Made by a program: the position numbers and the translations under genes
The notes under the pieces: generated by a model
Database searches by the model: none
Told to the model about the DNA's origin: nothing
Seen by the model: the letters and a program-made list of their open reading frames with translations, nothing else
Origin: Ianthella basta
Lineage: Eukaryota > Porifera > Demospongiae > Verongiida > Ianthellidae
Length of the DNA stretch: 64,000 nt
Assembly (NCBI GenBank): GCA_964019415.1
Contig: OZ025879.1
Coordinates: 4,578,637-4,642,636 of the forward strand
Direction: 5' to 3'
In this document: piece by piece, positions 1,220 through 63,860 of the stretch
Numbering within the stretch: the stretch's first letter is position 1
Layout: the number at the start of each line of letters is the position of its first letter

Positions 1220-1337
1220 TTACTGAAAGCATGTTTCACAAGGTCCTTCTCCTCTTTCTCCCACTTGTAGAGTGCCTGTTGTTTCATATGCTGGGTTATC
1301 CTGGAGATGAGGATCTTCATGCACAGCTTCAGTCTTA
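1220..1337 (-). CDS. Receptor 1 exon 14, cytoplasmic tail
   Basis: CTGCAG acceptor, then 38 codons and a TAA stop at 1222-1220. The tail reads [20 protein letters not shown] and onward. The NPAY motif is present, but two tyrosines found in sister tails are replaced, by His in the first motif and Cys in the last. Frame and phase fit the TM exon donor; a different frame, which starts with a Met, is a shadow. Confidence 0.68.
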
Positions 1338-4300
1338 CTGCAGTGATGCAAAGAGTGAAAATAAATCCATATGTAACTTGAGTATGCTTACTGTACATTC
1401 TATATTGTTAGAAATTGAAATTTTATGTACTCAACAATAATTATTACTGTGCCCAAAACTGTGTACAATTCATCTGTGCCACAGGTAGTTTGCCTGACAA
1501 ATCACCAGAGCATATGGAGGATGGTCAAAGAGTTTTGCTGATGTTCTGGATCTCTGGAGATGCCAGCACTTTCACAACTATATGGCGGGTTAATGTGACA
1601 ACACAGGCCATACATAATTATGGCCCAGGTGGTGCATGGTTACTAATAACTACATAAATTAAAAGCTTTAGCTTACTGTTTGGCTGGCATGTATACACTA
1701 ACGCATACTCATGAGCCTGGCTCAGTGTGAATGGTCCCTTACTGCCCTATACCAGCACATGGCATACTATAGCTTTATTAGTTCAGGAGGATGGGGGATA
1801 CAGAATACTAATGTTGCTGGACATACAATGACACTAGCTGCAGAACCCCCTGCATGTATGTTTCCCAGTATACCAGCATGCTACATCTTCAGGCAGTTAT
1901 ACATCACATCACAGTGACAATTACTCTTTTATTCCATTATAATGGAGTGAAACATAATGGAGTGAAACACAAGGACATAAGTTTTGGAGTATCCTAAATC
2001 TCATAGATCTTGTATCAGAGAGAACAAGAACTACTAAAGGATATGAGAAAGCAGTGAACATTATCAACTTTATCTATGCAATGTTGATAATATGTATACA
2101 CATGCATGCAAGAATATATATTTATTTGCTGTTGCTGGGTGGTTGCTATGTTTATTGAGTGACTATAAAAGTGCTACTTGCAGTGAGAGGTAACAATTTG
2201 TTATCAGACAGCGATTATATATATCTTATTGGAGAGCGTTTATATCTTATAGGAGAGCAATTATATCTTATTGGAGAGCGATTATATCTTATAGGAGAGC
2301 GATTATATCTTATTGGAGAGCAAGAATATCTAATCGGGTTCACGAAAATATCTAATCGGGTTCAGTGTGATTCAATCAATAGCAACAAAACTTCACATGC
2401 AAGTACTTGCATTCAGATCAAAACACAAGAACAGTTCAATGAAGCATACAGTAACTCTACACTACCCAACCATTAATATGGTTGGGTTTTGAATATCTAT
2501 GGTGCCACTGTAGTTTCAGTCATGGAAAAGGGCGCAAAAAGCTTAAGCTTCAACCTATTGGAAGCACTGAGCAAACTGATTACTGCCATTCTACCGTACT
2601 ACAGCTGTCAATTCAACGAAATTTGTGCGTCAATGGGTGGCCGATTCTTCCACACGAGAGGACCTGGTCGGAAAGACATCTCAAGTATGTAGCTAGCTAG
2701 CTAGCTACCGAACAAACATAGAGTCTCAGATCACGGTCAGTTCCGACGCAGCTGATCACCGATCCATCGTGCTGTCCCACTGTCAGATTCCTCTGAGTCA
2801 GCTTGGCTCCCTTTGCCTCCAAAGCCGCCGGGCGCACTTTCCGCCGACCACGAGTCACCATCCAAGTCTTGTTGGCACCTTCGATCGCGTTGCAGGAGCG
2901 GGGCAAGACGTCCCCTCCGTAAAGGAAGAGGTTTCTGGAGGTGTAGTGTACCGACGTTTCTGCCTGACTCGCTTGGCTCCTCGCTAGCTAGCTCTCGTAA
3001 TGAATAAAAATGCATTGGATTCGCTCGCGCTCCCTTAATGCTTTCCTTATTTGGCAAGAAACCAAATAACATTTGCCCATGCTTTCCTTCGGCAGATAAA
3101 TCACTTATAACACCTCCTTTTCGGGATGTCGCTGATTTATAAGCACTCCCCCCTTGGGCGCTTCGCGCCCTCGGGCCTCATGCTTATAAATCAGCGACAT
3201 CCCTCAAGGAGGTGTTATAACTAATACATATTAAATAATTATACTTACACTGTTGCGGTATTCAGTTTTCTTTTCTCTCTATGGAAGACTGCTGCAGCAA
3301 CACAGCCAGCAATGGCTGCCGTGAACAGGACACCTCCAATGAAACCTCCACTGGCACCACCCACACTCACACCCACAAAAGAGCAGTCACATGCTATAGG
3401 GGAGAAAGGGGACGGGGGAAATGGCATAGCTCTAGTGTCTGACGGTGCAGAAACTATGTAAACACATAGCAACATTACATCAATTAACTAAAGTTTTGTA
3501 TTATATATGTTCTGCATGGTTTCACAACTGTTGCCTTGTTGTACAACCAGTTGCCCCATTGCACACCTGGGCAAAGTACTGAACACTGTTTATGTATTCT
3601 TTTAATCTTTGTTTCACTAGCAAAGCCTTTCAGACCGCCCAGTTGTGCAAATGAACCAAGTAAGGCAATTGGGTAATAGAGAGCTATGTAGCAAGGCAAC
3701 CAGACACTATGAGAGCTAGGGAGCTGTGCAACTGGGTGGTATCAGTTGCCACATTAAAACAACGCCATAAGCTGAAAGCCCAGTAACCCATGCAACTGGG
3801 TAGCTCTCTATCACTTGATTGTTCAACCTGGCAGCTCTCTATTGCCTGACTTTCTAACTGGGCAGCTCTCTATTGCCCAGTTATCCAATCAGGCAGCTTT
3901 GTACTTGAGGAGAAACAGTGAAGGTAAGGGGAGTATGTACCAGAAAACACTGTTGGTTTAACACTTCATTATAAATATTGACAGCAGTATCACAGGACTA
4001 TACTAGACATGCTGTGAATTGTAACCTAACCTGCACACTACGTGATTAATGATACATTCATATGTGGCATTAGAATTTAATTGGCTGGAAATACATAATA
4101 TAATAATTATGCTTTTGTCTGACATACACAAATCACAGAAATATGACAGTGCTTCAATTACACCTATTGGTTGAATGGAGTGTGCGCAGTTGTGGTTAAC
4201 TGATGTCAAGGGACAAGTTAAGTCAAGCAACCTGCTTTATTTACCACATACCCGGTAGTCTAACCTGGTATAACAGTGTGAAACTTCTTCACTGCAGAAA

Positions 4301-6399
4301 AAGCACTCATGTTTCCAATTGAATTGACAGCGGCCACTGAAACACTGTACTCTGTATTGTGTGGAGTTAGACCTTGCAACGTAAAGCAGGTACCTGATGT
4401 ATTCACCATGCTATAGTAACCAGTGCCAATTAGTCCATACTTTACATGGTATTTCACGATTGCAACATCACATATCCTAGACTGGGAGGCAGTCCAAGAC
4501 ACCACAGCTGTGTCTGAATCCATTACAGCAACTGACACATTTGCTGGAGGTTCAGGTCCTGCATAACGAGAGCATAACAATGCACTTATGTATGAATACA
4601 CATGTAGGACTATTACATGTAAGACTCGATTCTTCCATTCTGTGTGCATGCACACAAACATAGCATGCAATTAAGAAGATCCATGACATAAGTACACAGC
4701 ATGTACAGTAACTAAGGTGATGCACCATTGTATACACGCTGCAAACCTTCTTCTCTATTCTTCCCAGGACAGAGTGGAAGAGCACTACTTTGTGCTGATC
4801 CTAAACCTCGAGTGTTGACAGCTGCTACTCTGACATTGTAGGCCAGGAACTCATTTGGGAGTGTCAGACTGAAGTAAGGGCTGCTGCTGCTTCCTGCATT
4901 CACTGGGTCTCCAGGTATCATTGCTGGTTCATACTCAATCTCATAGTGGATGGCTCCATTAGGGTGGAGTGGGGGGAGCCAGTTTAGCTCAGTGGTACTC
5001 CCATTTGGTTCTCTAGTCATAGTCAGCATGTGTGGTGGGAAGGGGGCTGTGGGGGTATATGTAGCAATAGAATGTTGGGTTGCATGGAAGTGCAAGGTAA
5101 GTGTTATACCTATTTATATCCTGTAAGTTGGAACATGCCTTACCACTTTCCATTGTTGTCACATACATCTCTCCTGCCCCACTACTGACTGATGTCCCAT
5201 CTGTAGACCACACTCTGATCCTGTAGGCTGTTCCTGGTTCCAGACCACTCAGTGTGACACTAGTGGTGGCTCCTCCTACAATCCTCTCATACTGTGGAGT
5301 CACCACTGGGGGAGTGCCAAGGTCCTGTCTCTGATAGCTCACATAGTATCCTGTAGCACCTGACACTTGGGACCAGGAGACACTCACTGATGTAGTTGTA
5401 GTTGCTCCTTGTCTATTGGAAGAAGGTGGCTGTATGGCACTTTCTACTCAGAATGGAAGTAAAAGAAAAGAACTGAATAATTGTATTGCTTTTGACTCCC
5501 TTTTGAAATTAGTTTAAAAATAATGTAGATGGAACCAGACAGCTCTTTCACGCCACTACAGTGGACATTTGCTGCACATGGTGTGGCATTCTCTGAAAAG
5601 GCCTTCCAGCACAGTGGTAATCCAACACAGCAGTGGAAGCTCAGTACAGAGGTGAGTTGGCTTTTCTCGACTATTATGTAGATATTGATCAATATTAGTT
5701 CTGTCACTAGAGTATCAATTGCAGTTTACAGCCTCTACAAGATTTGTGTACATGCTTGCAACATATAAGGTGATACATGACAACACTAATGCCGTTTGTC
5801 CCTGATGGTGCTGTGATGATAGATATTGCTGATAACATACTAGGATTACTATACTTGAATGCTTTTACTAGGGATGTTTAAAAAGGAATTTAGTTGCAAA
5901 TAGAAATAAGCCTAGGTTATAGCCTCACACTGAAGCCGAGTCTCATCACACGTCAGAGATACCTACATAAATGGGACAATGACGAAACTCTATCTGTGCA
6001 ACACGCTATTACAAGAAATACAAGAAGTCGGTAGGGTCTTTAGAACTATTGTGATAGAGGTTGCTTGATATAAGTGCCCCTTGCCTCAAAGTGTTCTGTT
6101 TACCTTTATAAATTTTGAAAGTGGGTAAGGGGTTGCCAGGCTGCACATTTGAAGCTAGCAAGTTCTAGTAATTTCTGATCAATATAATCCCTATTTCTCA
6201 AGTCTCAGTCAAGTGGCACCCAAGTGCTGTGTACACACATCATGAGAGAGGTTGCTTTGCTTCGATAATCCAGATAAAGATACAGCTGCCTTAATTACAT
6301 ATTTTGCCACGAGCATACAAGTAACAAACAAATTGTTCAAATCATAATTGCTATTTCTAATAGTCATGTATTACTAGCACATCTTATATGTGTGTGTGT

Positions 6400-6470
<71 letters not shown>

Positions 6471-6481: not shown

Positions 6482-6517
<36 letters not shown>

Positions 6518-9600: not shown

Positions 9601-12600
9601 GAGGTTTAACTTGTTTGTGTGTGTTGTCATCCTTGTGTCTTGATCTTGGTTGATTTGCTGTTCTGTATGCGTGGTTTCCTGTATTGTGCCTGTGTTTTTA
9701 TGGGGGAGAAATGTAGTGTATTGCATACTTATCTTATTGTACTTAATGAATGTGTTTACGCATGCGTGGTTGCTTTTGTGTACTGTCTTTAGAACCGGTT
9801 TTCTCTAGTTTGAGTCAGTTGTGTAAGTGGTCAGTTGTTCTAGTGTTAGTTCTTGTCTGACTGAGTTTTGGCTGCAGTGTTGTATCTGTCGTGCATTGAG
9901 TTGCTCCTAGGGAGTTCATTTCGAATCCGCAGTATATACCGTAGTATACGACACAGGCAGAGAAGGAGAGTAACAATAAGGTTTATGGGTGTCAGAGAGC
10001 TCTACTATTGGGCTTTCTGCACCATCATAGGTTGCCAATGACGTGGGTACCCCAAGAGGACAGAGAGGAGACAATTTTAATTAGAATAGAGAACAGTATT
10101 GGATCTAAACAGCTAATTGCCAACTAATTGGGGCCTGTTAGGATATAAACCACTTAGCATTGAGCTTCATGCTCAAAATCCCACTGACATCTCTTGGAGG
10201 GCATGTAACATTACTTATAGCCCTGCTGCAGAGCAATAATCACCATTGATTATGCTAGCTGAATACCCACTCTTTGGGAGGGTTCCCCATTTCATTTGAA
10301 ATTTGAGTGTTAAACCAATGGAACTGTCTATTTAATTGGGAGCATTCCATAGACTCATCCTGTAAAACTTTGTGCCCACAGAATTTACTTATGTACTTAT
10401 GATAATTCATTTTGTCTCAAGGAGTCCAGTGGGGTAGGCGCTAACCACCTTAGGTCACTATCCCGTATTGCTGTGTTATACTCTTCTACGTTTGGTGAAG
10501 ATTGGTGGAAAATTGGAGGAGTTTGTGAACAATGAAACACAATCTTTTCCCCATCTCTTAGATACGACAGTGACCATAAAAGTGGCAAGAACTCGAACTT
10601 TAAACCAAATTTCGGCTCACCCAGGTTACTCTAGCTGCTAAGCCTCTTCGTAATCCTACTACTTTGTGATGTTTTGTCCCGAATTGAAGGAGTATATCCT
10701 GAACATCAAAATGTGCATTATGTTTTTATAATAAGATGTACGTAATTGTGTAAGACCAGGTGAACAATTGGTCAGATATGCATGGTCAGATATACATTGT
10801 GCTATACTGTGGTGCTGTTTAAGACTTCAGTTAAGTTACCAAACTCACCTCCATTCACAAGATACACTCCAATGAATGCTGATGGGCCACCAGACACTTG
10901 GCATTCCAGGTCTTTGTTCATATACGCATTTGAACTAATGTACATGTGGATATCAGTTTGTCCATTGGTTGGCCTGTCTACACCCACACCACCATTTTGT
11001 ACACATTGGGAACCACAGTCCGTGCACCGAGACTGGCAGTCCAGTAGACGTCCACCACTGCTGTTATGCCATGTTACATATGGAAGCAACATGTTACCAC
11101 CATAGCAAACAATGTGGTCATTGCCAGGCAAACCACCTCCAGTTCGCGGAACATCGGTGTGTGTGAGTGCGGTGTTAGCAACAAAGCTGTTCCTCGGGAA
11201 GAATACTCTATATCTACCATCCTCATTCGACAAGGACAGGCCATCTGTGTGGATAGTGAATGTGTAAAGGAGAAGTCATATGTTAATGCACTAACTTAGT
11301 TCATGTGCATACTATTGCTTACGGAATAGTATACAGTCACATGGAAGATTGAAGTACAAATTGACAGTCATGTTCACAAAATTTACATTTTTTACAGTGA
11401 ACTGTGAATTGTGGTCAGTACCCATATGCAAATTGCATGCTGGTGCTGTATCTCATACCAACTCGCAGCGATCGATAATGGTGCCCGGTCGCCTGACCTT
11501 CAGTAAGTAGTAGTAGGATATGCATACAATAGAGATGAGTGGCAAAAGTTTCTATTCTCAGTATGACAAACATAATATCATGGTATGCCAATATACCCTA
11601 ATGTTACAAATAGGCTAGCATCGGGTTTCCAACCTAACAAATGTGAACACATTTGAAATGGAACACCTGGTCAAGTCAACCAAGTTTCAAGACTGCATGT
11701 GCCCTGCTGAGAAGCAAACACATTAATTCAGGCAAGTCAGTCACATGAAGGAGGTCTTCATCTTTCTCCACTTCACAGGTCGTGGTCTTGAGCAACTTCT
11801 CGAGGCAAGTGTAAGCATGTATTGCATGTCTCTGCTACTGCATAGGTGACATATTCCTGCTAAATGGTGTTATCATCCTTTATCTATGCCTGTACTAGGT
11901 AGGACGATGGACAACCTATTCATGTCCACCAAGTTTAATGCCTGTACAAGCGTAGCTACTTTATTATACTAATTACATCTATGTATCAGTATAAATATGC
12001 CATAGATTAAGTGTTATCCTAAATACATTCATATTAGCTCTTTTCGCATGCAAGAATGAAGGCCTAACAAAATGTTTATGCTGTGCCTACTATAACCAGT
12101 GAAATCTCATGTAGACATATCAAACTCCTACTGTCCACCAGTGTAATAAGCATTTCCCTTTGAAATTAAAGGGGTTTTAGGAATGGCCAGCAGAAAGAAG
12201 CATAGAAACAAGCAACATTTACTCAACACTATGGCATACATTATTTATGTGGAGTTCTCTGGGTTCCCAATTCCCTTGTACACACACCCAAATGTAAATA
12301 TAAAACAACAAATAAAATAAGAGCAGCCTATGTCATCAGAAAGGGTTGGTTCTCCAATACCAGCTTCACAACAGGGTTGAAAACCTTGCCGACGTTTCGA
12401 CCAGATGCTCTGGTCTTCTTCAGGGCGAAGATATGCCAGCGCGAGCACTGATCATATTTATAGCCTTGGTACACCACCTTGGACTTCTTCTCCTGGAGAA
12501 GAAGTCCAAGGTGGTGTACCAAGTCCCATGCAGCTGTGGCGAGACCTACATTGGGGAGACACTGAGGAGGCTCGAGATGAGAATGAAAGAGCACCGGGAT

Positions 12601-15600
12601 GCCTGTCAGAAGGGGACACTGGAGAAGTCAGCCCTTGCAGAGCATGCGTGGGAGAACCACCATCCAATCAGATGGGAGGAGACAACAGTGATCGACCAAG
12701 CCAGGACCCCCAAAGAACTGATGCTCAAGGAGGCAATCCACATCAGGCTGAACCGCCCCTCCCTCAACAGGGATGGTGAGCTGGAGCTGCCTGGATGTTG
12801 GATGGCCGCCTTGAGGAAGGCAATCCCGCAACTTCCGGTGACACCCCTTGATGTGGCTTCCTGTGACAGCGCATGATGAGATGCTAGGCTATAAATATGA
12901 TCAGTGCTCGCACTGGCATATCTTCGCCCTGAAGAAGACCAGAGCATCTGGTCGAAACGTTGGCAAGGTTTTCAACCCTGTTGTGAAGCTGGTATTGGAG
13001 AACCAACCCTTTCTGATGCCTGAGCCAGCTGAGAAGCCCTCACTTCAGCCTATGTCATTTTCCTCTTATGCAAACCCAAGGCTGGCTTTGGGTGTGCTGC
13101 CATCTTGAATACATTGAAAGAAACCTATCCATTGCCAGTAATTGTTCTTTGCTGCTGCCATCAAGCTGGTTTTGCTGAAATGTGCTTGTACATTAAGAAT
13201 AGTAGCCACAAATATTTGGGCGCCTTCCTAATCGGATGTCATGAGTGTCAGGTGCTTGATGTCAAAGGCAACAAAAACAAATAAAACAAATCAATAATTG
13301 CGCGAGAGGGTTTATTGGACAACCGGTTCTGGTGCAGAACTCACTTGCTGCTGACAATGTGTACATAGCTGTTCCCACTTGCTGTGTGTTTCCCTGAACA
13401 GTACAAGTGTAGACACCATTGTCAACATTCTGCCTGCGTATATTCACTACCAAGATGTTGCCCTGTTGGATCCTGGCTGCCCACTCAGGATCAACTCCTC
13501 CTGCATCACAATAGCCCCCAGGACAGATCCACTGATAGCTCAGCACAGTGGTGGATGGCACTCCTACAACTCTGCACACCAAAATCAGGGTGGTGCCTTG
13601 CTCCACCGTAGCAGTGTCGGGGTAGGCATCAATGACAACTAAGAAGGTAATTACACAAGTAGACAAGTTGGGCGGGTAGCTAGCTATATCTAATTATGAC
13701 AAAAGACAGTGCCTAACACTCCCACACAGGCTACCCTCCTCTATACCAGTAAACAGTGAAAGAAAAGGATCAGTATGTGTTGCTGTGAACTCACTTGAAC
13801 CTGTAATGCTTACACATACACAGAGAGAGTCGGGACAGACTTTTGTTAGCAATGGTTACGAGCTATTTAGCTGGCTAGATAGCTTGTAACCATAGCTCTA
13901 CTCCACATTGTGAGTAACTAACACAACATTCTTTAACAATGAATTAAGAATGAAGAATGGTCCCTGGCATAAACTATGCACAGGCCCTCTTTGAATGCCA
14001 AACAGACGAGAAAAATATATACCTGTCACATACCAGTCGAACAACTACACTTCTGGTTACATTATTTTGTGCAATGTGTGAAGCCAGGCATTTGATTAGG
14101 CATCACAGGTTTGGCCAGGAGAAATGATAAGTAAGCAATACAAAAGGACTACTAGGCTATTATTATGAAATGCATGCAACCACAATGAAATAGCCAATTG
14201 CCTACTGCATGCCACTTATAAAACATAGAATATAACTACTTCTATACTCTTGTTTGAGCCTTGCTTGCAAACAGATTGATTAATGATGCATTTAAACACA
14301 GCACTGTGATATACGTAATTGTCTATAAGTATACATACATACGCTTCAGTCTGACAGTACCAGTCACCGAAATGCAACAGTGGTTCAATTACATCTATAG
14401 GTTGCAAGAAACATGTGTATTTATGGTTAACTGGGCAATGGGACAAAGTCATGTTACCTGCAATGATTACTCCATTGGTAACAGCAACTGGTCTCACCTG
14501 GTGTCACCTTTGGTAAATCAGTGTGGAAATTCCTCACTGCAGAGAATGCACTCATGTCTCCATTTGAATAGATGGTAGCCACTGACACACTGTACTGTGT
14601 ATTGCAAGGTGTGAGGCTATTCAGTGTAACACTGGTACCTGATGTATAGAATGTGGTATAGCCACCAGTGCCATTCCTCAGTTGGTACTTCACAATATAA
14701 TTTGATATCACAGCATCACACATCCTAGACTGGGAGGCAGTCCAAGAAACCACAGCTGTGTCTGAGTCCATTATAACAACTGCCACATCTGCTGGAGGCT
14801 CAGGTCCTGTAGGAAATTGAACATATTATCATAGCAATGAATATATGACCATAAACACTCATATTGACACTCATTTTTGCATGTAGGTGCACCCTAGTGC
14901 ACCAGTTATTAATTGCTAGCCTGCATGATTTATTGTTAGGATCTTAGTTTGTTTCAATCATTTATTATTATTAAGTGCAATTAAGATGTAACCATTATCT
15001 CTGACCATAAAAATACATACATCCATTCTTCTATTCTGCAAGAATGTACACAATCACTGCTTGCAACTGAGAGCATGCATCACACACTGTGCAAACCTTC
15101 TCTATTCTTCCCAGGACAGAGTGGAAGAGCACTACTTTGTGCTGATCCTAAACCTTTAGTGTTGACAGCTGCTACTTTGACATTGTAGGTCAGGAACTCA
15201 TTGGGCAGTGTCAGAGTGAAGTAAGGGCTGCTGCTGCTTCCTGCATTCACTGGGTCTCCAGGTGTCATTGCTGGTTCATACTCAATCTCATAGTGGATGG
15301 CTCCATTAGAGTGGAGTGGGGGGAGCCAGTTCAGTTCAATGGTACTCCCAGTTGGTTCCCCAATCATGGTCAGCATGCGTGGTGGGGAGGGGGCTGTAGG
15401 GATGCAAGTACATGATGGTAAGCAGTTTAGCAATGGAGCTGAGCTGATCACTCTCACAAGGTGACTGAACAGAAATACTTGATAATTATAGTAATGACTC
15501 ACCACTTTCCACTGTTGTCACATCCATACTCCTTGCCCCACCACTGACTGATATCCCATCTGTAGACCACACTCTGATCCTGTAGGTTGTTCTTGGTTCC

Positions 15601-38453: not shown

Positions 38454-38493
38454 CTGCTGTCAGCTGTAGCAATAGCAGCAGTGATAATGCCAT
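38454..38493 (-). CDS. Receptor 3 signal-peptide exon, shortened start
   Basis: The family start codon is GTG here, and an in-frame TAG lies just upstream. The only ATG is internal, giving MALSLLLLLQLTA, a hydrophobic core with almost no n-region. Donor GTGAGG is intact. Confidence 0.5.
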
Positions 38494-38526
38494 CCGGCAA
38501 GCACAGGAGAGAAGAAATTGTGCCAC

Positions 38527-40353: not shown

Positions 40354-40471
40354 TTATTGAAAACATGTTTCATAAGGTTCTTCTCCTTCTCCTCCCATTT
40401 GTGGAGTGCATGTAGTTCCATATGCTGGATTATCCTGGAGATGTGGGTCTTCATACACAGCTTCACTCTTA
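40354..40471 (-). CDS. Receptor 4 exon 9, cytoplasmic tail
   Basis: 38 codons and TAA at 40356-40354. Tyrosine sites AVYEDP, QDNPAY (followed by Gly, Glu in sisters) and EPYETC. NPxY is a known binding site for PTB domains and endocytic adaptors. No ITIM consensus is met. Confidence 0.68.
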
Positions 40472-49400: not shown

Positions 49401-52400
49401 TCTTTTCCCTGCTTCAGGCAATTAATAGGAGGGCCTGGAGCATTATGGCTATGCTTCCTTTAAGGTATGCAGGGAGTTAAAACAGAAAAGTGGTCATGTA
49501 GGAAAATTGACTGAATCTCCAGCAGTGAAGAAGTAGTGCTCTTCATACGTGCTGGTATGTACCTCTGTCAATCTACTACTAGTGTAACAACTTGTAGGTA
49601 GCTAAATGAGTTGCATGCAATACTGCACAATTATAAATAAAAATGGCAATAATTATTTTGAAATTCTAACTTGCTGACTCTGGAATTTGCTGTTACAACG
49701 TGAACCTTTCAAACAATGAGATGTCTGGTGACCAGTGATCAATCTAGTTCGTGTACTTTATGCATGCAAAAATCTCTTCTCTAGATCTTGAGCTCAGCCT
49801 TTTTTTCTGTTTTTTTTCCTTTTTGCAACATTTTCCGCTAAACCTACAAGCTGAATACCCACCCTTTGGGTGGGGTTTAGCCTATCGTTTGAAATTTAAC
49901 TGTTTTACCAACTGAAACTGTCAGCTGATATGCTGATGATAAGGTTAGTCGTAATCTACCAGTTCATCCAATGTAAAATGAAAATAATAAATGCAGATGC
50001 ACAGACACAGTTACTCATCAAAATAGATTCATAATTTTATATACTTTCATAGGGGTGTATATCATACATACGTATGTATAGTAGGCCATAACCCATATGC
50101 ATAACACGAACAAGCAGCACACACACACACACACACACACATAGTCTACAAGTGCACACATACCAGCTGCTGATATGTATCAGCAGCTGGCTTAAAGCTT
50201 CCTTTAGGGTACATTACCTCTGGCTTTGTAACTCTGAACCATACTGCCAATCATCTTGACAATTACAAATCTGATAAACAAGTATTTTGAGTAAAACAAA
50301 TTGTGGGCTCCTGAACTCAATCTATTTGCTAGCAATTTCCTTGGGTATATTCAATAATTCAAAACTCTTATATAAAACCTTTTTACTGCGAAACAAATTA
50401 CCTATTTCAGTCTTACACAGATTCGGAAAGATAATGGATTGATTTCACACTTTGACTTTAAATTGTGAGATCTCAAGATGTCTGTAATTTGGTCCAGCCG
50501 CAGATGGTCATTGAGTCCTTTAGCAGGTCTTTGGTGTCAATTTGAAGACCTAGGTATCCAAGGGAGTGATGTCATGACCTGGAATTGACCAAGAGAATCT
50601 TTCCTCAAGAAACTGGCGAAGTGCGGCAACTATGCAAGTCCAGGCAAATTTGGTCTCCATGCAGTTATAAATTACCGTCTATTCTCTATTAACAATTCGC
50701 TGCTCGGACCCCTGGCTTCTATTCGAGCCCCGGCCTCTATTCAGGGCTGGCCTCTATACGGCCATATATGGCATACATGTCTGCTGCTAACAGGACAGTT
50801 GTTCTGTTGAGTGTAATGTTGTTAGACCCATCAGATCATTTTGTGGACCATTTTGGGTTCGTTTAAGTGGGGAAATTTGCAATCATGAAGAGAAGCGGAG
50901 AGAAGTGATCTGTCAAAAGCCAGATTGACTGCAATTTTAAAAATGAATAATATAAAATGACCTCCCTCTCTCATGCTGCTTTCAAAACCATTTGACAATA
51001 AACTGTGAATCAAATTTGCATGGCCTAAACTATGACCGGATCGGCTTAGTGTTCTAGTTATGCTGATGATACGACAGCAGTTTGGGCTTTGTCATTGAGA
51101 GTGTGTGCTGGTGTAGCTGTATCTAGATTGAAATAGCTTAGCTAGAGAGTCTGCACATTGATTTATGAGTTGATCACCAGAAGGATGTTCACCACTGACA
51201 CCAACCTGGAGGACAATTAAACAGCACAGCCAGTGTTGGAAGTAGGCAGACATGCTTGAACAGCTTGTAATTAGATTGTGAAGTACAGAATGCAGCCGAA
51301 AAGTCCTCTGGTGCAACACTCTTTGGCCACTTTTCTGTCTTCCAAAACTTGCTCAGGGAGGGAGTGATTGAATTAAAACTTAAGATATGTGTTTCAGTCA
51401 CATTAATCAACAACTGTACCGAATATTGTGCAGGGTTATTGATTTCAACACATGGGTCAGTGATGCTACTTTAAGTGGGAGCATCCAGTGCACTTATACT
51501 CTGCCAAACTCCATGTGAAAAGAATTTTTTTATGTTTATCCATTTTGTCTTAAGGGTTTCAGCGGCGAAGGTGCTAACCACCTTAAGTCACTCCCTACAT
51601 TGCCATGATACACTCTTTCAATTTCGGTGAAGATTGATTGAAAATTGAAGGAGGAGTTTCCAAACAATGAAGTACAATCTTTTCCCTATCTCTTAGATAT
51701 AATGACAACCGTAAAAGATGCAAGAACTCAGATGGAGCAACTATAACCCAAATTTTGGCTAGACCATGTTATGCTCTCACCATTTTTCAACCACGTTTGG
51801 CGACCATATGTGCATGGTAGATATTGCACAGTTATTTAACTTGCTGACAATGTATATGATTCATATGTATAATACTACACACTCTTTTACCTAGTTGGTT
51901 TTGGAAAGGAAGGAAGGAAGACACTTTTCATATAACTAAGCATTGATCATTATACAACAGCTTGTGAACATAAGTTGACTTGATTTGATCAATGCATTTG
52001 ATAGAGTGTTTTGAATTAGCTACAAATACAGTTTATAAATACATATAATACACAACACTCACCTCCATTAATGAGATAGACTCCAATGAATGCTGACTGG
52101 CCGTTCTGCACTTGGCATTCCAGATCTTGGTTCACATATGAAGGTGAGTCAGTGTACATGTGGATATCAGTGTGTGCATTGCCTTGAGGGTCTACACCTA
52201 CACCACCATTGTGTTGACAGCGGGGACCACAGGCAATGCATGGATTCTCACAGGCCACTAGCTGTCCAGTAATGCTATGCCATGCTACAAACAGAGTTAG
52301 ATCGCTACCACCATTGCAAACAATGTGGTCATTGCCAACTGCTGGGTCTATAAACAGTGCCTTTCGTGGGGTGTTAGTGTGTGTGAGTGTGGTGTTGGTA

Positions 52401-55400
52401 ACAAAGCTGTTCCAGGGGAAGAATACTCTCAATCCACCATCATCATTCAACAAGGACAGACCATCTGTGTGGGTAGTGAAAGTGTAAACGAGAAGTGACA
52501 CCATGTGAACACACTGATTATGTTCATGTACAATACATACCGACAGGATTGTATAATATACTACACTTGGAAGTGAACACTGACAGTCACTCAAGTCAAT
52601 TAAAATTTTCCATTGAACTCTACTTCTTGATTTGTCATGGTTAACAATGAGGAGAAATCACAAGTATATATGTAGTAGCAGTAAGCTTTCGAAAAAAACA
52701 GGTGTAGGTAGTTATCACATACATACACACAACTCTGTGCAGACTCCATGTACCTCATATATACATGATGGCAAGGAGGAGGATATGGGTTGCAACAGTC
52801 AAGGAGTAATATAAGGCAAGATTATTTCCTTGACATTTTCCATGTTATTACCTGCTCCATGCTGCAGAGTAAGAGATTTATAGAATGCTGGATATGATGC
52901 CATTTCACTTGCACTTGCTCTGTCATTTGAAAAGAAGCTGGTACCATTTTCCAGTCCTCAATCCACCATACTAACAACACCCACTGTAGTGCCTCGACTT
53001 TTCCCTTTTCCAGACTCTACAAATTGTAACTAGCCTGTCCTGCTCACACTGAAAATCACTATCTTGTACTCTTGTTCCCAAACACAATTCAACTCTCACC
53101 TTACTAACAGTAATACAAAAGTATTGCTGGAGCCTACCACTTGAACCTCTTTCTGTCAATGAGCTAGAGGTGCTCACAAGTCAGCTGATTCCGTTGAATG
53201 TGAATGAGGAAATTCTGTGCCACAGCAATGAAAAGATACCTAGAAGCCACCAGAGATGGTGGCGATGACTGTTTTGTTCTAAATGTTCTGTTGATATCTA
53301 CAGATAACAATAGCCAGCATTTGAAGTGTGTTTTAGCCTGCTGGTTTGCCATGGTATCATCAGAGCATGATGCATGTTTACAGTAAGTGCTCAGCCCAAA
53401 GACTATATATATATACACGAGTCCTGCAACTGGTACAGAACAGCACATAATGACTTGGAAGAGTTGCTAGATTGTAAAGCCCATGCAGCAAGGTAGATGT
53501 TGCCAGATGTAGGGATAGTGAAAACGTATTCCAATCAGGAAAACTTAACCTGGGCTATTGCATGGACTGAAAGTTGCTGAATTTCAAGGGGACTGGGCAT
53601 GAGCAATGATGCAAGAGGGAGCTGGATGCAGCAGCAACACAACTTGCAAAAGGGCGCAGAGTGAAACTTGTAAGTGCCCATGTGCAAGGTGCATGTTGTT
53701 GCCGCATCCCATTCCAACTTACATATATGATCTCCTGTCAAGTCGAGCGGGAAGGAGTAGACTTGCGCTCTTGAAAACTGGAAACCCTGGAAACCCTGCG
53801 TAACAAATGGGGCACACACCCTATTCAACATACTCTATTTATCCCAGTTACACCCCAGGTACCGTCCGGCACCACTCGAATCGCCTGAACCATGCCCCCG
53901 AAGAAGAGGTCGGATGCCTCCAGAAGAGGTGAGGACGCAACATCATCTGCGTTGCCTTGCGGGAACTGTGGTAGTCGGGAAAACGAGGAGGAAGGAATAC
54001 GCTGTGATGGCCCCCGCAGAGGATGGTTCCACTTCGGGTGCCTGTCTCTCACCGAGGAAGAAGTGGCTGAAGCGAGGGAAGACGGCGTGTCGAGACCCTG
54101 GAGCTGTGACAGATGTCTGGCCCTCTCCTCAGCTGTGCAAGAGCTTCTCCACACGGTGAAGATCCTCAATGAGAGGCTGCACTCTCTGGAAACCGACAAT
54201 CAGGACCTGACCAGGAGACTGGAGCTCCTGGAGAGCCATGATAGCACCCCGGAACATGCCAGCACGAAAAGCGCAACGGCTGATATGGACACGGACACCG
54301 GCTCAATGGCAGACGAAACGAATTCAGCACACTAACTAAACATGATGGCAATGGCTCATGCAAGACCACAAAGAAAGTCCAAAGTAGGCACTGATGAAAA
54401 GGAACGCACCCAACAGAAGTCAAGGAAATCTAGCCTGTTTATCAGAAAGATCCCAGTAACTCACCAAATTGAGGATGTCAGACCGCAAATGAGGAAGTGC
54501 CCCGGGATACCCCTGAAAGACCTAACGATCACGCAACCTATCCCTAACAGTGAGTTCACAGGGAAATGGAAGTATATGTCTTGTGAGGGTCCTACAACAG
54601 CGTTAGAGATGCTCACACAAGCATGTGAGAAGAGGAACCTTCCTTGGAGAATCAACTCTGCTCCCCCAACGCGCCCCACTCCTTTTTTCAAAAACCAGAC
54701 ACACAAACCTCATCGAGAACTAGCAGCAAGACCAGAAGTTCATCCCAAACCATTCACACCACAGCATCGTCCCCATCTCAATACCCACCCTTTTCCACCA
54801 CCACTCAGCCTCCCACTATCATTCAATATGCAATCGTGCATAGCAAAGGCATTTGCTAAAATTATTAATAACAGGCTATCCAACTACCTAGAATCTAACT
54901 GTCTCTTATATGATGAACAGAATGGGTTCCGTAAGGGTCGCTGCTGTCAGGACCACATATCTTCCTTATACTTCATAATTGAAAACAGGAAATTGAGCAA
55001 GCAAGACACTTATGCATGTTTCGTTGATTTTAGAAATGCCTTTGACTCTGTTCCTAGGGAACTGCTTTGGAGTAAATTATCACATTCAGGAATTAATAAT
55101 AACATTTATTCTAGTATAAAGGCATTATATACAAATACCAGAAGCTCCATAAAAATCGATAACAACCTCTCCTCCCCCATTTTTATTAAGCGTGGAGTGA
55201 AGCAAGGCTGCCCCCTCTCCCCTACCCTGTTTAATATTTTTATTAACGACTTGATTGGATAGTTGAATGAAAAAGCTGAGGGGATTTCCTTTAGATTATG
55301 CCAATTGAATGCCCTCATGTATGCAGACAATCTTGTACTAGTAGCAGATAAGCCTGACTCACTCAATAAATTGTTACAGGTACTTAATCAGTGGTGCACT

Positions 55401-58400
55401 GACAATAGAATGTGTATAAATCCAGACTAAACCAAGATTATTCATTTCAGACATCAGATGAAGCAAATTTCAAATTTTCTCTTTACATGCGGAGAATATC
55501 ATATTTATTTTACAGACATTTACAGATACCTAGGAGTAGAATTTACGGAACATCTTAGCTGGGCACAACAAATTGAGAGCACATCAATATCAACAAACAG
55601 AGTGGCAAACTACTTAATTGCAAAAACTAGAAGCAGCGGAGCACTAGTATTTGAAGTTTATACTCACCTGTATAACACACTTGTCTTCCCTATCATTGGA
55701 TATAGCAATTTCTTGTGGGGTTATAAGGGGTATAGTGATATAATGAAGATACAGAATAATTTAATGAGAAGCTTCTTAGGTGTAGGCAGAAACGCCCCGA
55801 TTGTAGCTCTTCTAGGTGATTTAGGCTGGCTCCCCATTACAACAATTACTAAGATCTCATGCATAGGATTCTGGTTCAGATTAAGCAAAATGGCTAAAGG
55901 TAGATTAAATAAGCAGATATTTATTAAAGCAAGTAATCTAGCATCTGATATTTCTGATTTTTAATCATCTGCTAACCCTTAGCTCTGTTAGACAAAAATT
56001 ATTTTCTCATTGCCTAACTTTATCAAACTCATTTACAAATCTTTCTTCTTATGACAAATGTAAGTTCCTCTTAACGAATACCGATAATACAACCATATCC
56101 CTTATTCTTCAAATGTACCATTTAAGGCAATCACTTTTATGCGTCAATTAGTGTATAGTCACTATGTATACTTACCTATCCACTTACACCTGCAAGTTAA
56201 TTTTTGTAACAATTTTTTCAGTGACCAGTAAGCCAACCTTGGCTGAGCAGCCTCTGATCCTCATGCTGCGGTCACTCTAATAATCATTCTATATATATAG
56301 CGTAACATATATATGCAGGTGCTTGGTTCCCCTGATCATATATTTTGCAGTATTATTCCTTCCATCCATTAGAGTTAATACTCTACTTGCACTTGTGCTG
56401 GTTACCCCTCTGTAACTAGTGCTGGTGGGGTTTCAATGTAGCACTAGTGCATGCATGCACTGATGCACTTAACTAGTGCTGGTGGGTTTTCAGTGTAGTT
56501 CCATGTAGTGGATGCACTGAAGCGTTTCCATACTTTGCATGCTATAAATTTATCCAGATTAAACTTGAAAGTGACTGTGACTGGAATGACCTGCATGAGT
56601 TCAAGATGTCTTCTTTGATTTTATTAAGGTTAGTAATTCTTGCAGTGCACCAAGGAGCTTGACTTATTGACCTCATTCCTTGTGTGGTACACTTGAAAGT
56701 TATATGTACTGCATCTTCTTTTGCCTTGCTTGTGACAAGCCTGGTAACTGTCAGACTCCCTAGTATGCATCTAAAGGTGGCACTCTGATGAGTCATTTCA
56801 GCTGTCTTGACACTTACACTACTCTAGTCTATTCTCTCTTTCCATCCTCCTTTGTCTCATGTCCAGTAAATAAATGTGAGTGGATTTGAGAAAAGGGACC
56901 ATTTCGCGCTAAAAATCGATTTTGAGTTAGTGGTACTGAGTCACAGCACAATTGATGGGGTCTCTGTTGCACTTTGTTCCGCTTCAATAGCTGCTCCCGT
57001 TCCCGAGTTACGCTCGCTCAAAGTACGCTCGATGCAATTACGAGAAAACGGCCCGTAACCCTTCCGTTTTTATATCCTTAAACATGGCGACGGCGTAACT
57101 AGTCTTCCTGGTTTGAAGCGCTGGAAAGGACTAGGCGTTTCAAACTTGGCCAGGATGTTGGGACTATACCACAGGTGCGTATGATGCAGTAATCCGACTT
57201 TACTGGAAACACGACTCGTTTGCGTGTTTTCGCCCGTAGTGACACTTAATACATAGCGCGAATTGGTCCCTTTTCTCAAATCCGCTCACAAATAGTACAT
57301 ACTTGTTTACCTTCTCCTCGGCTTTCTTTGCAAAGTGTGGTAGAACTGTTGCTTGGTAATGGATCCCAAATGCTAATATATTGCTACCCAATACCCATGG
57401 GAGCTTCTTTGAGACGTTCAGAGTGTATAATTATGTAGTAATACCAACACACTCAAGTGACTCCCTGCACAACTTGTAATTATGGACTTCAGAGTGCTTT
57501 GGTGGCACTGACTGTCAAATCAAATTCACCTCCTACTGTATAATACTACTTGACTGCCTGCCCTATCTAACAAGGAAGTCCTACTACCATCTGATGATAT
57601 AACTGTAAATGAGAAAATTGGTGTTCAATTACAATTACTAGGCATATCTCACTGGCATAATATGTAGGTGCCTACTTTTAACATTCTCAACACAGCCCAG
57701 GCTTTGACTGTGAACTCTCAGTACAAGATGACCTTGTAAGTTTCAGTATCTTATAATGCAACACTTAGTGGCTGTGAAATTATTTGAGAGTTGTATAGCA
57801 AGCAAAGTTGTAGCTAGCTATGCAGCTTAATCAACTTGACACTCACCTGCAACTGACAAGTTGTGGCTCGCGTTCACAACTAGATGTGTGTTATTCTGAA
57901 CAAAGCAGGTGTAGACACCATTGTCATCATTATGCCTGCGTACATTCACTACCAAGATGTTGCCTTGTTGGATCCTGGCTGCCCACTCAGGATCAACTCC
58001 TCCTGCATCACAATAGCCCCCAGGACAGGTCCACTGATAGCTCAGCACAGTGGTGGATGGTACTCCTACAACTCTGCACACCAAAGTCAGGGTGGTGCCT
58101 TGCTCCACAGTAGCAGTGTTGGGATAGGCATCAATGACAGCTAAAGAAGGTAAATCAACAAGAAGTCAAGTGAGGCTAGACAATATGACAAATGACATTG
58201 TGTAGCATCTCCACACAGGCTATACCCATGCACTCCTCTACACCAATGACAGTCATGTATTGGACCTACAATAGCCTACGTACGTACCTCTTACTGTGCC
58301 CTCACTGGAACCTAAAGCGCTTACCCCTGTACAGAGAAATTTGGGACAGAATGTAGCTAGCTAGCCTGTTTCTAGCCAGCTTGCAAACACATATTGCCAG

Positions 58401-58640
58401 TAACCAACACTCACAGGTATTTGAAACAAGATCACTGATAGTTTAGCGCAGCTTAGCCAGCTAGCTATAGCAAAGCCGTAGGTATCAAAAAACACGACGC
58501 CTATACCATTACAATACCATTCCCTCTACTACTTTGTTAGTCTAAGACGGACTGTAGACCACCTCACCTGATGTTAGCTGGAGCAGTAGCAACAGTGCTA
58601 TCGCCACCCGACAAGTACAGGAGAGAAGAAAGGGTGCCAT
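40354..58640 (-). CDS. Receptor 4: single-unit Ig/X/FN3 membrane receptor (gene model, 9 coding exons)
   Basis: The cleanest complete copy. Exons, 5' to 3': 58640-58568, 58326-58288, 58140-57847, 52464-52063, 44822-44523, 44432-44139, 43188-42886, 42081-41937, 40471-40354. They total 1968 nt, coding for about 655 aa without internal stop. Order by residue: signal 1-24, linker 25-37, Ig 38-135, X 136-269, FN3-1 270-369, FN3-2 370-467, FN3-3 468-568, TM exon about 569-616, tail to 655. An additional FN3-3 exon at 43706-44005 contains a stop and must be skipped; phase 1 on both sides allows this. Probably a cell-surface recognition or adhesion receptor signalling or trafficking through its NPAY tail. 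The ligand is unknown. Confidence 0.72.
40472..41936 (-). other. Receptor 4 intron between TM and tail
   Basis: Contains the conserved block at about 40620-40740; otherwise non-coding and paralogous to 1338-3248. Confidence 0.45.
41937..42081 (-). CDS. Receptor 4 exon 8, transmembrane exon
   Basis: 145 nt: stalk AGDCSFVDIAVGG, membrane segment [20 protein letters not shown], anchor YRDKRKLN. Acceptor CCATAG; a second in-frame acceptor lies 9 nt upstream. Donor GTGAGT after two bases of the next codon. Confidence 0.78.
42082..42885 (-). other. Receptor 4 intron between FN3-3 and TM
   Basis: Non-coding; this is the sequence that reappears at 13.94-14.42 kb inside receptor 1. Confidence 0.45.
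42886..43188 (-). CDS. Receptor 4 exon 7, FN3-3
   Basis: 101 codons of FN3 ([49 protein letters not shown]). Acceptor TTGCAG, donor GTGAGAC. Confidence 0.8.
43306..43346 (-). repeat. Truncated duplicate of the FN3-2 3' end
   Basis: About 40 bp matching the last bases of FN3-2 and its donor (compare 44133-44173), then abruptly unrelated sequence. It marks the edge of the duplication that produced the two FN3-3 exons. Confidence 0.6.
43706..44005 (-). pseudogene. Dead extra FN3-3 exon of receptor 4
   Basis: A 300-bp FN3-3 copy with intact acceptor (TTGCAG) and donor (GTGAGAG). The core Trp codon of VVSWTAS is TAG (43943-43941; 43942 is t where sisters have c). Inclusion would truncate the protein before the membrane; skipping keeps frame. 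Confidence 0.78.
44139..44432 (-). CDS. Receptor 4 exon 6, FN3-2
   Basis: 98 codons of FN3 ([41 protein letters not shown]). Acceptor TTCCAG, donor GTTTGC. The 90-bp intron before it is open in the same frame. Confidence 0.82.
44523..44822 (-). CDS. Receptor 4 exon 5, FN3-1
   Basis: 100 codons of FN3 ([51 protein letters not shown]). Acceptor GAGTAG, donor GTAAGG. Confidence 0.82.
45010..45870. repeat. Dispersed repeat element, CpG-decayed copy
   Basis: Second copy of the 2125-3222 element, ending in the same fold-back motif (GGGATGTGGCTAATTTATAA and its inverse at 45838-45860). Confidence 0.55.
46755..46981. repeat. Fold-back element with about 95-bp arms
   Basis: Arms 46755-46852 and 46880-46981 are inverted copies beginning TTTCTAAAAAATTG and containing GATGTAGGGATGGCAT. 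MITE-like. Confidence 0.75.
47810..48200. repeat. CATG/ATGCAT-dense tract
   Basis: CATG recurs roughly every 10-20 bp with irregular spacing, often as GCATGGAA or ATGCATG. Looks like a degenerate short-unit satellite. Confidence 0.6.
48893..49010 (+). repeat. (TATG)n microsatellite
   Basis: About 118 bp of GTAT/TATG tetramer, with a few changes near the 3' end. Confidence 0.95.
52063..52464 (-). CDS. Receptor 4 exon 4, domain X
   Basis: 134 codons. Framework [20 protein letters not shown] (PR to PW change), GNDHIVCNGG, VAWHSITG, CIACGPRC, DLECQVQNG. Loop before GNDH: RKALFIDPAV. Closest by eye to the copy at 19275. Confidence 0.75.
53892..54335 (+). pseudogene. LINE ORF1 with PHD-like finger and coiled coil
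   Basis: 147 codons, intact. CGNCGSRENEEEGIRCDG, then RGWFHFGCLSL and PWSCDRCL fit a C4HC3 PHD pattern (residues about 22-75). A Leu-rich coiled coil follows (LHTVKILNERLHSLETDNQD). PHD-bearing ORF1 proteins are known from some LINE clades and are thought to help in RNP or chromatin contact. Confidence 0.72.
54342..55262 (+). pseudogene. LINE fused ORF: ORF1-side segment joined to mid-RT
   Basis: 306 codons. The N-terminal half is basic and Pro-rich with no recognised fold. From about residue 165, RT motifs appear: EQNGFRKGRCCQDHI, ACFVDFRNAFDSV and GVKQGCPLSPTLFNIFINDL. The apurinic endonuclease and the first RT motifs are missing. Stop at 55260, before the catalytic YADD box. Confidence 0.72.
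55290..55964 (+). pseudogene. LINE RT 3' part
   Basis: The catalytic box reads YADN instead of YADD (near 55321), then a stop near 55428. A second open frame, 55458-55964, has the thumb-side pattern YRYLGVEF, YNTLVFPIIGY and SNFLWGY. Not functional. Confidence 0.68.
56876..57289. mobile_element. TIR element (MITE-like), 414 bp
   Basis: Terminal inverted repeats of about 38 bp beginning GTGAGYGGATTTGAGAAAAG. The matching intron near 21135 reads straight across without it. No coding capacity seen. Confidence 0.72.
57847..58140 (-). CDS. Receptor 4 exon 3, Ig domain
   Basis: 98 codons: [61 protein letters not shown]. Acceptor TTTAG, donor GTGAGTG. Confidence 0.82.
58288..58326 (-). CDS. Receptor 4 exon 2, linker mini-exon
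   Basis: 39 bp between GTACAG and a GTACGT donor, reading GVSALGSSEGTVR. Phase 1 on both sides. Confidence 0.6.
58568..58640 (-). CDS. Receptor 4 exon 1, signal peptide
   Basis: ATG at 58640-58638, 24 codons with hydrophobic core VAIALLLLLQL and a TSG end, donor GTGAGG. Chosen as start because the same ATG position is used at 22634. Confidence 0.72.
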
Positions 58641-61440: not shown

Positions 61441-63860
61441 CTAATGTCAGTTGCAGCAGCAGCACTGCTGCCATCCGGCAGACAGAGAAATGAAGAAAGA
61501 TTTCCATATGCTAGTGGTTACAGCATCTTATTCTCCTTCCTCTCTGTTCAGCTGTGGCAGTTATTGCAGTTTATGCAGTATAGTAGGAAACAACACTTGC
61601 ATGCACGTATTTAAAAGTTTGTGTCATCTACACATGATGTTAGTGATCGCTTAACAATATCTTCAATGGCTGCATGGTGGGGATGTCTGCCCTGGCTCCT
61701 GTGGCAACTTAGCCTGTGGAGGCCCTGGTGATCCACATGTGCTTGGCAATGTTAGCACACATGTGGATGGCACAGAGAGACCCCTAAGCAGAGGCCCATG
61801 GCCACCCGGACCACCTCCTTGTCCATGTGCAGGCCCAATGATGATACAGGAAGGGCCTGCAGCCATATCCTGGACTCCTATCTATGTTCTATCTATGTTT
61901 CAAATGAATTGTAGAATGAAATCACCATGCAGATGTTATTGAATACACGTGTGCCGCACCGTATTTTTTTCAGAATGCATTATACAACATCATGCAGTAA
62001 TAAGACAATACCACTTTATAACAGCATTGCCGGTTTTGGTCTTATTCAGGAGTAGCGACTTCTGTTTGTATTACAGCATATGAACAACCACTGCCATTGA
62101 TGATATGAACATTGATGCAGATACAGCTCATGCACTTATAGATACAGCCCAGATACAGACCATTTGATCCATCACACTGAGGGCATGATCACCAGACCTT
62201 ATATGGTAGTGATTGCATTTCCTGACATCCCCATTGGCACAAGACTGGAGACCTGAGAATTGTGTAGCTGAGTATCATGTGTAGCCACCCCACTGTGGTG
62301 CTGTAGGTCTAGTGAAGGTGCTGTCTCTGGACAAGGAGCGTTATAAGCCAGGAAGAAATGATGGCTGGTTGGCCTCTGAGGCAGTTCTGTCCACTTCCTC
62401 AGCTCCAACACTAGGGGCCTCACTGTCACCCTCAGAAAGCTACATATGCTTTATAGCAACAGCCAGCCAATAATGTCCAACTCAGACAGTCCCAGAACCA
62501 ACATACAATGGGTAAGATCATGAAAGAAAGAAATAAAACCACCAGAAAGAAACGATCATTGGTGCTGGGGCTAAGAGAACATCAGAAGATTCTCTCCATG
62601 GTTTGATACTCAGATGTGGCTGCTATCCCTTCATACACTACACCATTGACATATATATGCACATCTTCTACACATTGTGACTGGTTCTGGCACAGCGGTG
62701 GGAATCATTAGCCTCTACAGTGTGTCAGTTATGAGATGTACATAATAGACAGTGTATCTACTAGATTTGTCAAGTCTAATAGAAGACACAACTCAGAAGA
62801 AATAAAGGGTAAATTGACACCAGCCGGCATCAAACCCAGGACAATTTATACCCTATTGCTATGCTGAGATATAATCGAAAATGTAGAATTCATGCAGGTA
62901 ATGTGTGAATATTATAATGGCGCAACAGATACTGTCACCTCTCTATTCAACACACCTTTAGGACTATTTATAATAGAAGTAAGTATCCTCATTAGGGAGG
63001 TGTCCTTATTTCAGATGTAGTTTGCACACACCTTTTCATACATAGCTGGGACAGCTGCAAGTACATGTGAATATCCTCCTAGCCTGCTTCACATCACAGC
63101 TGTGGATGTGGATGGACTGAGTCTGAAATGGGTTAACATTTATCTTATAGCTATAATAAAATGATTAGTTAGGGGATAGCAAGATGATGTTATTAGGTTA
63201 TCTGTTTGATAGGTATAATGGAGCTCCTATGTGGAGCCTGTCCATTAGGCCACCTGTAGGACCTTCTGAGGTGTCTGCTTAAAACAAGTGGCTGCATTAT
63301 ACAAAAACCACTATAGGCAGGTTACTGCCTGTTTGTGCATGTATGTAATATCTTCTATGCAAAATATGAGCCATAAAATAGTGAACCTTTAACCCACAAT
63401 GTGTTTAGTATACAGATGTAAAAGTGGCAGGCACAGGTATTGCTGTTCATATTTTAAATAGTTGTTTTGCAACTTTTGTGACACCTCTATTCCATATACC
63501 TGTCTGACAGTTTGTACAAGTGATTAGGGAGGTATCCTTAGCTATATATTCAAAGGTAGGTTTGTACACATCTCTATGTAGCTGGTACAGTAGGCACATG
63601 CACTGTCCTCATTAGAGAGGTGTCCTTATTTCAGAGGTACTGTAAGTAGTTTTGTGCAGCAGTGAAGGTAGGCTCTGTCCTCGCTAGAGAGGTGTCCTGA
63701 ATTTAGAGTGTGTACACATTAGTAAAGTACACTGTGGTTGGTGATGCAGTTAAGGTATTGCATGCGTGAAAGGATGCAGCAGTGAGTATAGTCAATTGCA
63801 TTATTGCTATCATACAGTTCTGTATTGGTCTAAGTTGTAATAGGTGGAACATGCCAAATG
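59636..63860. repeat. Large inverted repeat, about 1-kb arms, 2.3-kb spacer
   Basis: Left arm about 59636-60606, right arm about 62868-63860, inverted and similar throughout by eye. Shared landmarks: GACACCTCCCTAATGAGGA-type phrases, TCCATTAGGCCACCTGTAGG, and the inner edge CATTTTCGATTATATCTCAG. Arms are diverged but alignable. The spacer carries the orphan signal exon and the 61808-62360 repeat. Confidence 0.72.
61441..61507 (-). pseudogene. Orphan signal-peptide exon
   Basis: ATG at 61507-61505 opens 22 codons ending in the family pattern CRMAAVLLLQLTLG with a GTGAGG donor. No linker or Ig exon was found between it and receptor 4's own signal exon. It is probably the remnant of a decayed receptor, or an alternative first exon for receptor 4. 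Confidence 0.45.

Follow-up and report, generated by a model that had tools for sequence, protein, structure and literature searches.

The Alr receptors of Hydractinia join a variable outer domain to tyrosine-bearing tails, and the fuhc locus of Botryllus schlosseri, a polymorphic histocompatibility locus of a colonial invertebrate, is a single locus with few genes and no such array. Sponge aggregation-factor genes carry Calx-beta or other characteristic domains. The genes behind sponge self/non-self recognition remain, to our knowledge, an open question. In Hydractinia symbiolongicarpus, the Alr complex is a cluster of 41 immunoglobulin superfamily (IgSF) receptor genes (PMC11999971). Among sponges, the aggregation factors form a cell recognition system that is polymorphic in Microciona (PMC5450542) and consists of an extracellular proteoglycan complex (PMC11999971), and a receptor tyrosine kinase of Geodia cydonium is a membrane receptor with an Ig-like extracellular domain (PMC12018476). 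Here, we analyze a 64-kb stretch of the 209-Mb genome of the sponge Ianthella basta (contig OZ025879.1, here C12, positions 4578637 to 4642636; "the window" throughout), in which a preliminary description had seen a tandem cluster of rearranging membrane receptors built from Ig, X, and FN3 domains.

By sequence, the window is one part of an array of about 75 related genes for putative type I membrane receptors. We consider it probable that this is a germline array of recognition receptors in which domain X reads the ligand and the tail signals through phosphotyrosine; recognition of non-self or self, whether conspecific or microbial, is the most likely role. Like the Alr complex, the locus is a tandem cluster of many IgSF type I receptor genes, a likeness of architecture. 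It differs from Alr in phylum, in its FN3 stalk, in the NPxY motif of the C12 tails, and in its extent (about 75 units over 1.75 Mb). Whereas the Geodia receptor has a kinase, the tail exons of the two gene models in the window (gene A and the fused gene D+E) stop after 38 residues, with no intracellular kinase or phosphatase domain. In contrast to the aggregation factors, gene A matches essentially Ig and FN3 families, and Calx-beta is not among the 11 Pfam families that it matches (E ≤ 0.01). No sponge array of this kind is described in the titles, abstract openings, or text passages found in the open-licence PMC literature. With a variable domain and conserved tyrosine motifs combined in a single linked array, the present locus is a concrete and testable one for sponge recognition. 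It would extend very large IgSF receptor arrays of the Alr kind beyond cnidarians and would point to variable Ig-like domains as an ancient solution in animals.

Receptor exons in the window and across C12

Exons in the window were identified from repeat families, translations, splice-site modeling, and self-comparison. The minus strand carries 4 Ig, 5 X, 5 FN3-1, 5 FN3-2 (one frameshifted), 5 FN3-3 (one with an in-frame stop), 4 transmembrane (TM), and 4 tail exons, together with signal-peptide exons of which two are intact, one lacks its ATG, and one is an orphan. Repeats and splice modeling thereby confirm the exon set of the preliminary description (at least four TM, four tail, four Ig, and five each of X, FN3-1, and FN3-2), and splice-site modeling bears out its consistent order and matching phases: ectodomain exons are phase 1-1, the TM-to-tail junction is phase 2, and exon order is uniform across the window. 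The span it had reported, 1220 to 61507, runs from the stop codon of the last tail exon to the end of the orphan signal-peptide exon. The complete gene model has eight exons, not the nine proposed; a further 5' exon may exist. In all, the window holds one intact eight-exon gene model (gene A), one fused 13-exon model (D+E), one likely pseudogene (unit B), and one fragment (C).

Gene A, with seven GT-AG introns, encodes a product of 643 residues whose hydropathy maxima are the TM segment and the signal peptide. Against Pfam, the model matches fn3 in three stretches, above the cutoff (E = 2.1e-29; 102 bits), and barely passes for Ig_3 (E = 6.2e-7; 30.3 bits against a cutoff of 30). The region of its Ig exon (window positions 57827 to 58165) scores 35.9 bits against the same cutoff, which places it in the immunoglobulin superfamily.

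The genome was searched with each window exon, and all match counts are lower bounds. Close relatives are concentrated almost entirely at 4.38 to 6.14 Mb of C12 (about 1.75 Mb), where we mapped at least 79 Ig, 79 X, 80 FN3-1, 76 FN3-2, 104 FN3-3, 57 TM, and 35 tail exons; with a second tail query, the union of tail matches rose to at least 42, all on C12. This map omits 8 of the 87 X rows, namely, the second halves of two split exons, three full-length copies on C4, and weak partial copies on C2 (two) and C10 (one). Split at its Ig exons, the map yields 79 units: 75 have X next, 66 start with Ig-X-FN3-1-FN3-2, 54 have a TM or tail exon, and 73 are in monotone order. Ordered units of at least four exons numbered 64, compared with at most 9 in 1,000 label shuffles. 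The tandem multigene family with tyrosine tails read from the window was therefore correctly recognized and is far larger than the window; with 79 Ig-led units, it is anything but single copy.

The array lies on the minus strand below 5.15 Mb and on the plus strand above 5.17 Mb, a head-to-head arrangement. Adjoining the strand switch is a stretch of about 350 kb without any match (4.7705 to 5.1264 Mb). FN3-3 is absent from 16 units, present once in 48, and present in up to seven copies in two; in a sub-block at 5.92 to 6.14 Mb, most units have three to seven copies, a variation in stalk length by exon duplication. On C4 (9.927 to 10.064 Mb), two X/Ig/FN3 units 133 kb apart have the same scores for X, Ig, FN3-1, and FN3-2 and may reflect a recent duplication or an assembly duplicate. 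Elsewhere on C12 (1.688 to 1.713 Mb) is a separate dense run of highly similar FN3 domains, a large share of which lie within long open frames.

Domain X

Searches of Pfam, NCBIfam, and PDB sequences returned no credible match for X, the best PDB row being a Leptospira Ig-like protein at E = 0.016. With moderate confidence, X is predicted to adopt a divergent Ig-like fold, so that the protein would have an Ig-Ig-FN3 type of architecture. The earlier suggestion that the domain set had not been described before is weakened by this prediction.

Full-length matches make up 76 of the 87 (73 on C12 and 3 on C4), and 75 of these 76 are open; stops occur in 3 of the 11 partial rows. In a neutral simulation that counts substitutions only and runs to 0.18 per site, 11% of X exons stay open; the mean pairwise synonymous divergence (dS) is about twice that value, at 0.36. 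Because X matches were selected by homology, thoroughly decayed copies would be missed. Judged from these sequences, the array units are not dead repeats.

Entropy and length changes in X cluster before C50, between C50 and W62, in the cysteine-rich segment from C72 to C83, and, for some of the copies, just ahead of the last strand. The windowed ratio of nonsynonymous to synonymous differences per site (pN/pS) is 0.17 to 0.33 in the first 30 columns and rises as high as 1.44 in the first of the variable stretches; columns 91 to 130 also give 0.86 to 1.32, but pS itself is just 0.10 to 0.23 there. Strong positive selection across the whole exon is unsupported, as the overall dN/dS of 35 X sequences is 0.54, with dN exceeding dS in 4 of 595 pairs. 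Conservation is stronger in the Ig exon than in X (pN of 0.072 among 29 Ig copies versus 0.171 among the 35 X copies; 30 Ig loci were fetched, one of them a duplicate).

Tails and proposed signaling

Tails were taken by homology, and motifs were read in 12 of the 42 or more matches (10 from the minus half of the array and 2 from the plus half). NPAY is present in 11 of the 12, with a stop replacing the tyrosine in the other; VYED lies upstream of it in 10, and 8 end in YETCFQ. Comparison of the two array halves shows a diverged linker sequence but retained tyrosine motifs. NPxY is a phosphotyrosine-binding (PTB) or endocytic motif known for uptake.

A complete gene would encode a signal peptide, Ig, X, two FN3 domains, FN3-3 (usually one copy and up to seven), and a single TM helix. 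The tail that follows is about 38 residues long, contains VYEDP and NPAY, and in most cases ends in YETCFQ. We propose that X meets its ligand through its variable stretches, which would form exposed loops, with Ig and FN3 as conserved scaffold and stalk. Ligand binding would lead to tyrosine phosphorylation and then to docking of PTB or SH2 adaptors.

Alternative explanations

Copy number tilts the reading slightly toward non-self or microbial ligands. Recognition of microbes or symbionts, in which X would bind a microbial ligand and NPxY would signal uptake, is a reasonable candidate, if short of probable, and the uptake role of the motif suits it. Other large pattern-receptor repertoires occur in sponges, such as the 296 SRCR genes of Amphimedon (PMC10855680) and the NLR genes of Dysidea (PMC12909245), but a Pfam search found no known microbe-binding fold in the gene A model. 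The array might instead be the locus that governs fusion and rejection in the sponge, where the X loops of one individual would bind matching X domains on conspecifics that touch it. We hold this allorecognition role to be possible but rather unlikely. It draws on the likeness to the Hydractinia complex of 41 Alr genes (PMC11999971) and to the Podocoryna complex, with 22 such genes (PMC13119343); on sponge grafting, which points to a polymorphic genetic system (PMC5450542); and on the array being linked, very large, and equipped with a variable domain. However, sheer copy number also fits microbe recognition. In addition, the paper on the Amphimedon graft transcriptome reports that neither cell adhesion nor aggregation-factor genes were significantly enriched, and the words "immunoglobulin" and "receptor" are absent from its text (PMC5450542).

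Adhesion proteins account for many of the nearest relatives, by sequence or fold, among solved structures (LAR-type receptor protein tyrosine phosphatases, Dscam, NCAM, NEGR1, and contactins), and with the FN3 stalk they would suit a role in cell adhesion or identity, with stochastic expression labeling individual cells as in Dscam or protocadherins. We regard this as unlikely. Several units carry their own signal peptide, TM, and tail exons, and 57 TM and 35 tail exons are interleaved with the C12 units, so the locus is not one gene with alternative exons in the manner of Dscam; variability focused in one domain also suits recognition of variable partners. Some decay is evident: unit B is a probable pseudogene because it has lost its ATG (now GTG), has a frameshifted FN3-2, and has altered splice sites; fragment C has no detectable signal peptide, Ig, or FN3-3 exon by self-comparison and splice modeling; one FN3-3 exon is dead; and stops interrupt one of the tails read and some partial X rows. 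That the whole array is a decaying repeat without function is nevertheless very improbable, given that nearly all full-length X exons are open against the 11% expected, that pN/pS is low over the first 30 X columns, and that the tail motif is retained across diverged subfamilies.

Probable germline exchange among units

Under the favored reading of a germline recognition array, repertoire turnover would occur through tandem duplication and unequal exchange inside the introns between phase-1 exons, with the D+E fusion, fragment C, and FN3-3 amplification as products; exon-scale gene conversion probably adds to it. The term "rearranging" in the preliminary description holds for such germline shuffling of units and exons and is limited to that sense.

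Synonymous divergence in Ig is patchy, with pS of 0.03 to 0.065 in codons 21 to 50 versus 0.145 to 0.24 elsewhere. Column shuffles reached the observed spread of window pS in 0 of 1,000 cases for Ig and 2 of 1,000 for X, and the lowest window in 15 and 89 of 1,000, respectively. Gene conversion tracts would produce this pattern; nucleotide-level constraint may as well.

Units at 4.48 to 4.745 Mb, a block chosen post hoc after the match lists had been viewed, were compared with the rest by median identity to the query copy, excluding self and partial matches (72 of 79 X, 72 of 79 Ig, 77 of 80 FN3-1, 72 of 76 FN3-2, and 56 of 57 TM matches used). Their identity is higher by 28.5 points for TM and 16.5 points for FN3-3 (all 103 non-self rows), as against 4.5 points for X and 2.5, 2, and 1.5 points for FN3-1, Ig, and FN3-2, respectively; the difference is significant for X (P = 4e-4) and not for Ig, FN3-1, or FN3-2 at 0.05. 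An X partner from the same gene could be assigned to 13 of 29 Ig copies; in these 13 genes, Ig and X distances are uncorrelated, a comparison of low power (rho = 0.113; 577 of 2,000 permutations). Among the 30 of 35 X sequences with coordinates, mean nucleotide distance is 0.193 within and 0.201 between array halves, and copies that lie farther apart in the genome are weakly more divergent (rho = 0.129; 76 of 2,000 permutations; Mantel test). These data are best explained if 5' exons are exchanged throughout the array and 3' exons mark the subfamilies; unequal exon rates are the alternative.

Units of the window and their surroundings

Coordinates of all exons are given in Table 1. The joined D+E frame is open for 1,173 residues over its 13 exons and 12 GT-AG introns. 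We read it as a single gene because, in self-comparison, the intron that follows FN3-3 in D runs into the intron that precedes Ig in E, and because no TM, tail, or signal-peptide exon was found between them by window models or exon searches of the genome. The orphan signal-peptide-like exon upstream of gene A may be an alternative first exon of that gene or a remnant.

Table 1. Receptor exons in the 64-kb window (window positions)
Feature	Positions	Strand	Basis
Orphan signal-peptide-like exon (MEIFLHFSVCRMAAVLLLQLTLG, intact GT donor)	61441..61507	-	Similar exon upstream of another array unit (L018/L046)
Gene A signal peptide	58568..58640	-	Splice model
Gene A Ig, phase 1-1	57847..58140	-	Pfam Ig_3, splice model
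Gene A X, phase 1-1	52063..52464	-	Splice model; no Pfam family
Gene A FN3-1	44523..44825	-	Splice model
Gene A FN3-2, weak donor GTTTGC	44139..44432	-	Splice model
Dead extra FN3-3, in-frame stop	43706..44005	-	Translation, splice model
Gene A FN3-3	42886..43188	-	Splice model
Gene A TM, phase 1-2	41937..42081	-	Splice model, top hydropathy window
Gene A tail (VYEDP, NPAY, PYETCFQ, stop)	40354..40471	-	Splice model
Unit B signal-peptide remnant, GTG for ATG	38454..38526	-	
Unit B Ig	37745..38035	-	Splice model
Unit B X	36756..37178	-	Splice model
Unit B FN3-1, acceptor approximate	35963..36271	-	Splice model
Unit B FN3-2, frameshifted, ends approximate	35526..35828	-	
Unit B FN3-3, usual donor lost, 3' end approximate	35093..35373	-	
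Unit B TM, usual acceptor altered	34348..34488	-	
Unit B tail	33379..33493	-	
Fragment C X; upstream signal peptide/Ig not found	32703..33134	-	
Fragment C FN3-1; GC where other copies have GT donor	29300..29602	-	
Fragment C FN3-2; FN3-3 not found downstream	28897..29196	-	
Fragment C TM	28223..28367	-	
Fragment C tail	27372..27489	-	
D+E signal peptide	22562..22634	-	Splice model
D+E first Ig	21661..21954	-	Splice model
D+E first X (modeled with AlphaFold2)	19275..19676	-	Splice model
D+E first FN3-1	15503..15799	-	Splice model
D+E first FN3-2	15097..15393	-	Splice model
D+E first FN3-3	14498..14806	-	Splice model
D+E fusion junction	13925..14072	-	Self-comparison
D+E second Ig	13345..13638	-	Splice model
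D+E second X	10849..11244	-	Splice model
D+E second FN3-1	5144..5446	-	Splice model
D+E second FN3-2	4747..5046	-	Splice model
D+E second FN3-3	4265..4558	-	Splice model
D+E TM	3249..3393	-	Splice model
D+E tail, NPAY and stop	1220..1337	-	Splice model

Pieces of a reverse transcriptase, non-LTR (long terminal repeat)-like by our reading, lie at 54336 to 55964 (plus strand) in the Ig-X intron of gene A, and a Ty3-type retrotransposon remnant with zinc knuckle, reverse transcriptase, and RNase H lies at 6957 to 8069 (plus strand) in the second X-FN3-1 intron of D+E. The second Ig-X intron of D+E contains, at 12322 to 13030, a 145-nt inverted repeat (95% complementary) flanking an open frame that, by our reading, resembles a GIY-YIG endonuclease; it has no Pfam match. 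Each end of the window carries a copy of a 555-column repeat (81% identical) that lies between receptor units (1 to 526 and 61808 to 62350). Scans for bacterial promoters and for tandem repeats yielded nothing informative.

A second receptor array and the mitochondrial contig

Once the 82 close Ig relatives are set aside, C8 accounts for 65 of the 150 scored Ig matches, at 40 to 55% identity. One such locus (L081; C8, 7473000 to 7481000, 8 kb) reads as a signal peptide, Ig, an unmatched second domain, two FN3 domains, a Ser/Thr/Pro stalk, and a TM segment, followed by a longer tail with the tyrosine motifs YDVV, YQGL, YTQL, YQEL, and YQAM; we take YQGL-x10-YTQL to fit the consensus of the immunoreceptor tyrosine-based activation motif (ITAM). 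This tail has at least 51 matches, a few with stops, on C8 (7.19 to 7.55 Mb), on C16 (5.66 to 5.72 Mb), and, once, on C11. We read these as a putative sister array of Ig/FN3 receptors on C8/C16 with a mucin-like stalk and ITAM-like tails. The second domain of the C8 receptor occupies the same position as X, with no similarity detectable by hhalign (probability 1.6); FN3-1 and its C8 counterpart are weakly similar (E = 0.001 in one comparison).

Related Ig receptors in arrays with differing tyrosine tails, NPAY on C12 and ITAM-like on C8, recall the vertebrate leukocyte receptor complex and its paired receptors. A C12/C8 pairing drawn from this analogy is speculation. The broader proposal, that the C12 array is a sponge histocompatibility complex with X loops resembling complementarity-determining regions and NPxY tails, paired with the ITAM-like C8/C16 array, strikes us as doubtful; if true, recognition through paired receptors would exist in a phylum that is among the earliest to branch off within the animals.

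The assembly also includes a mitochondrial contig (C96) on which COX1 has nine in-frame TGA codons and an ATP synthase c-subunit frame is present. Its gene order is nad6-nad3-trnR-nad4L-cox1-cox2-trnK-atp8, where names other than cox1 and the tRNAs are presumptive. Among animals, a mitochondrially encoded atp9 marks demosponges and their allies. The contig supports a sponge host and looks demosponge-like.

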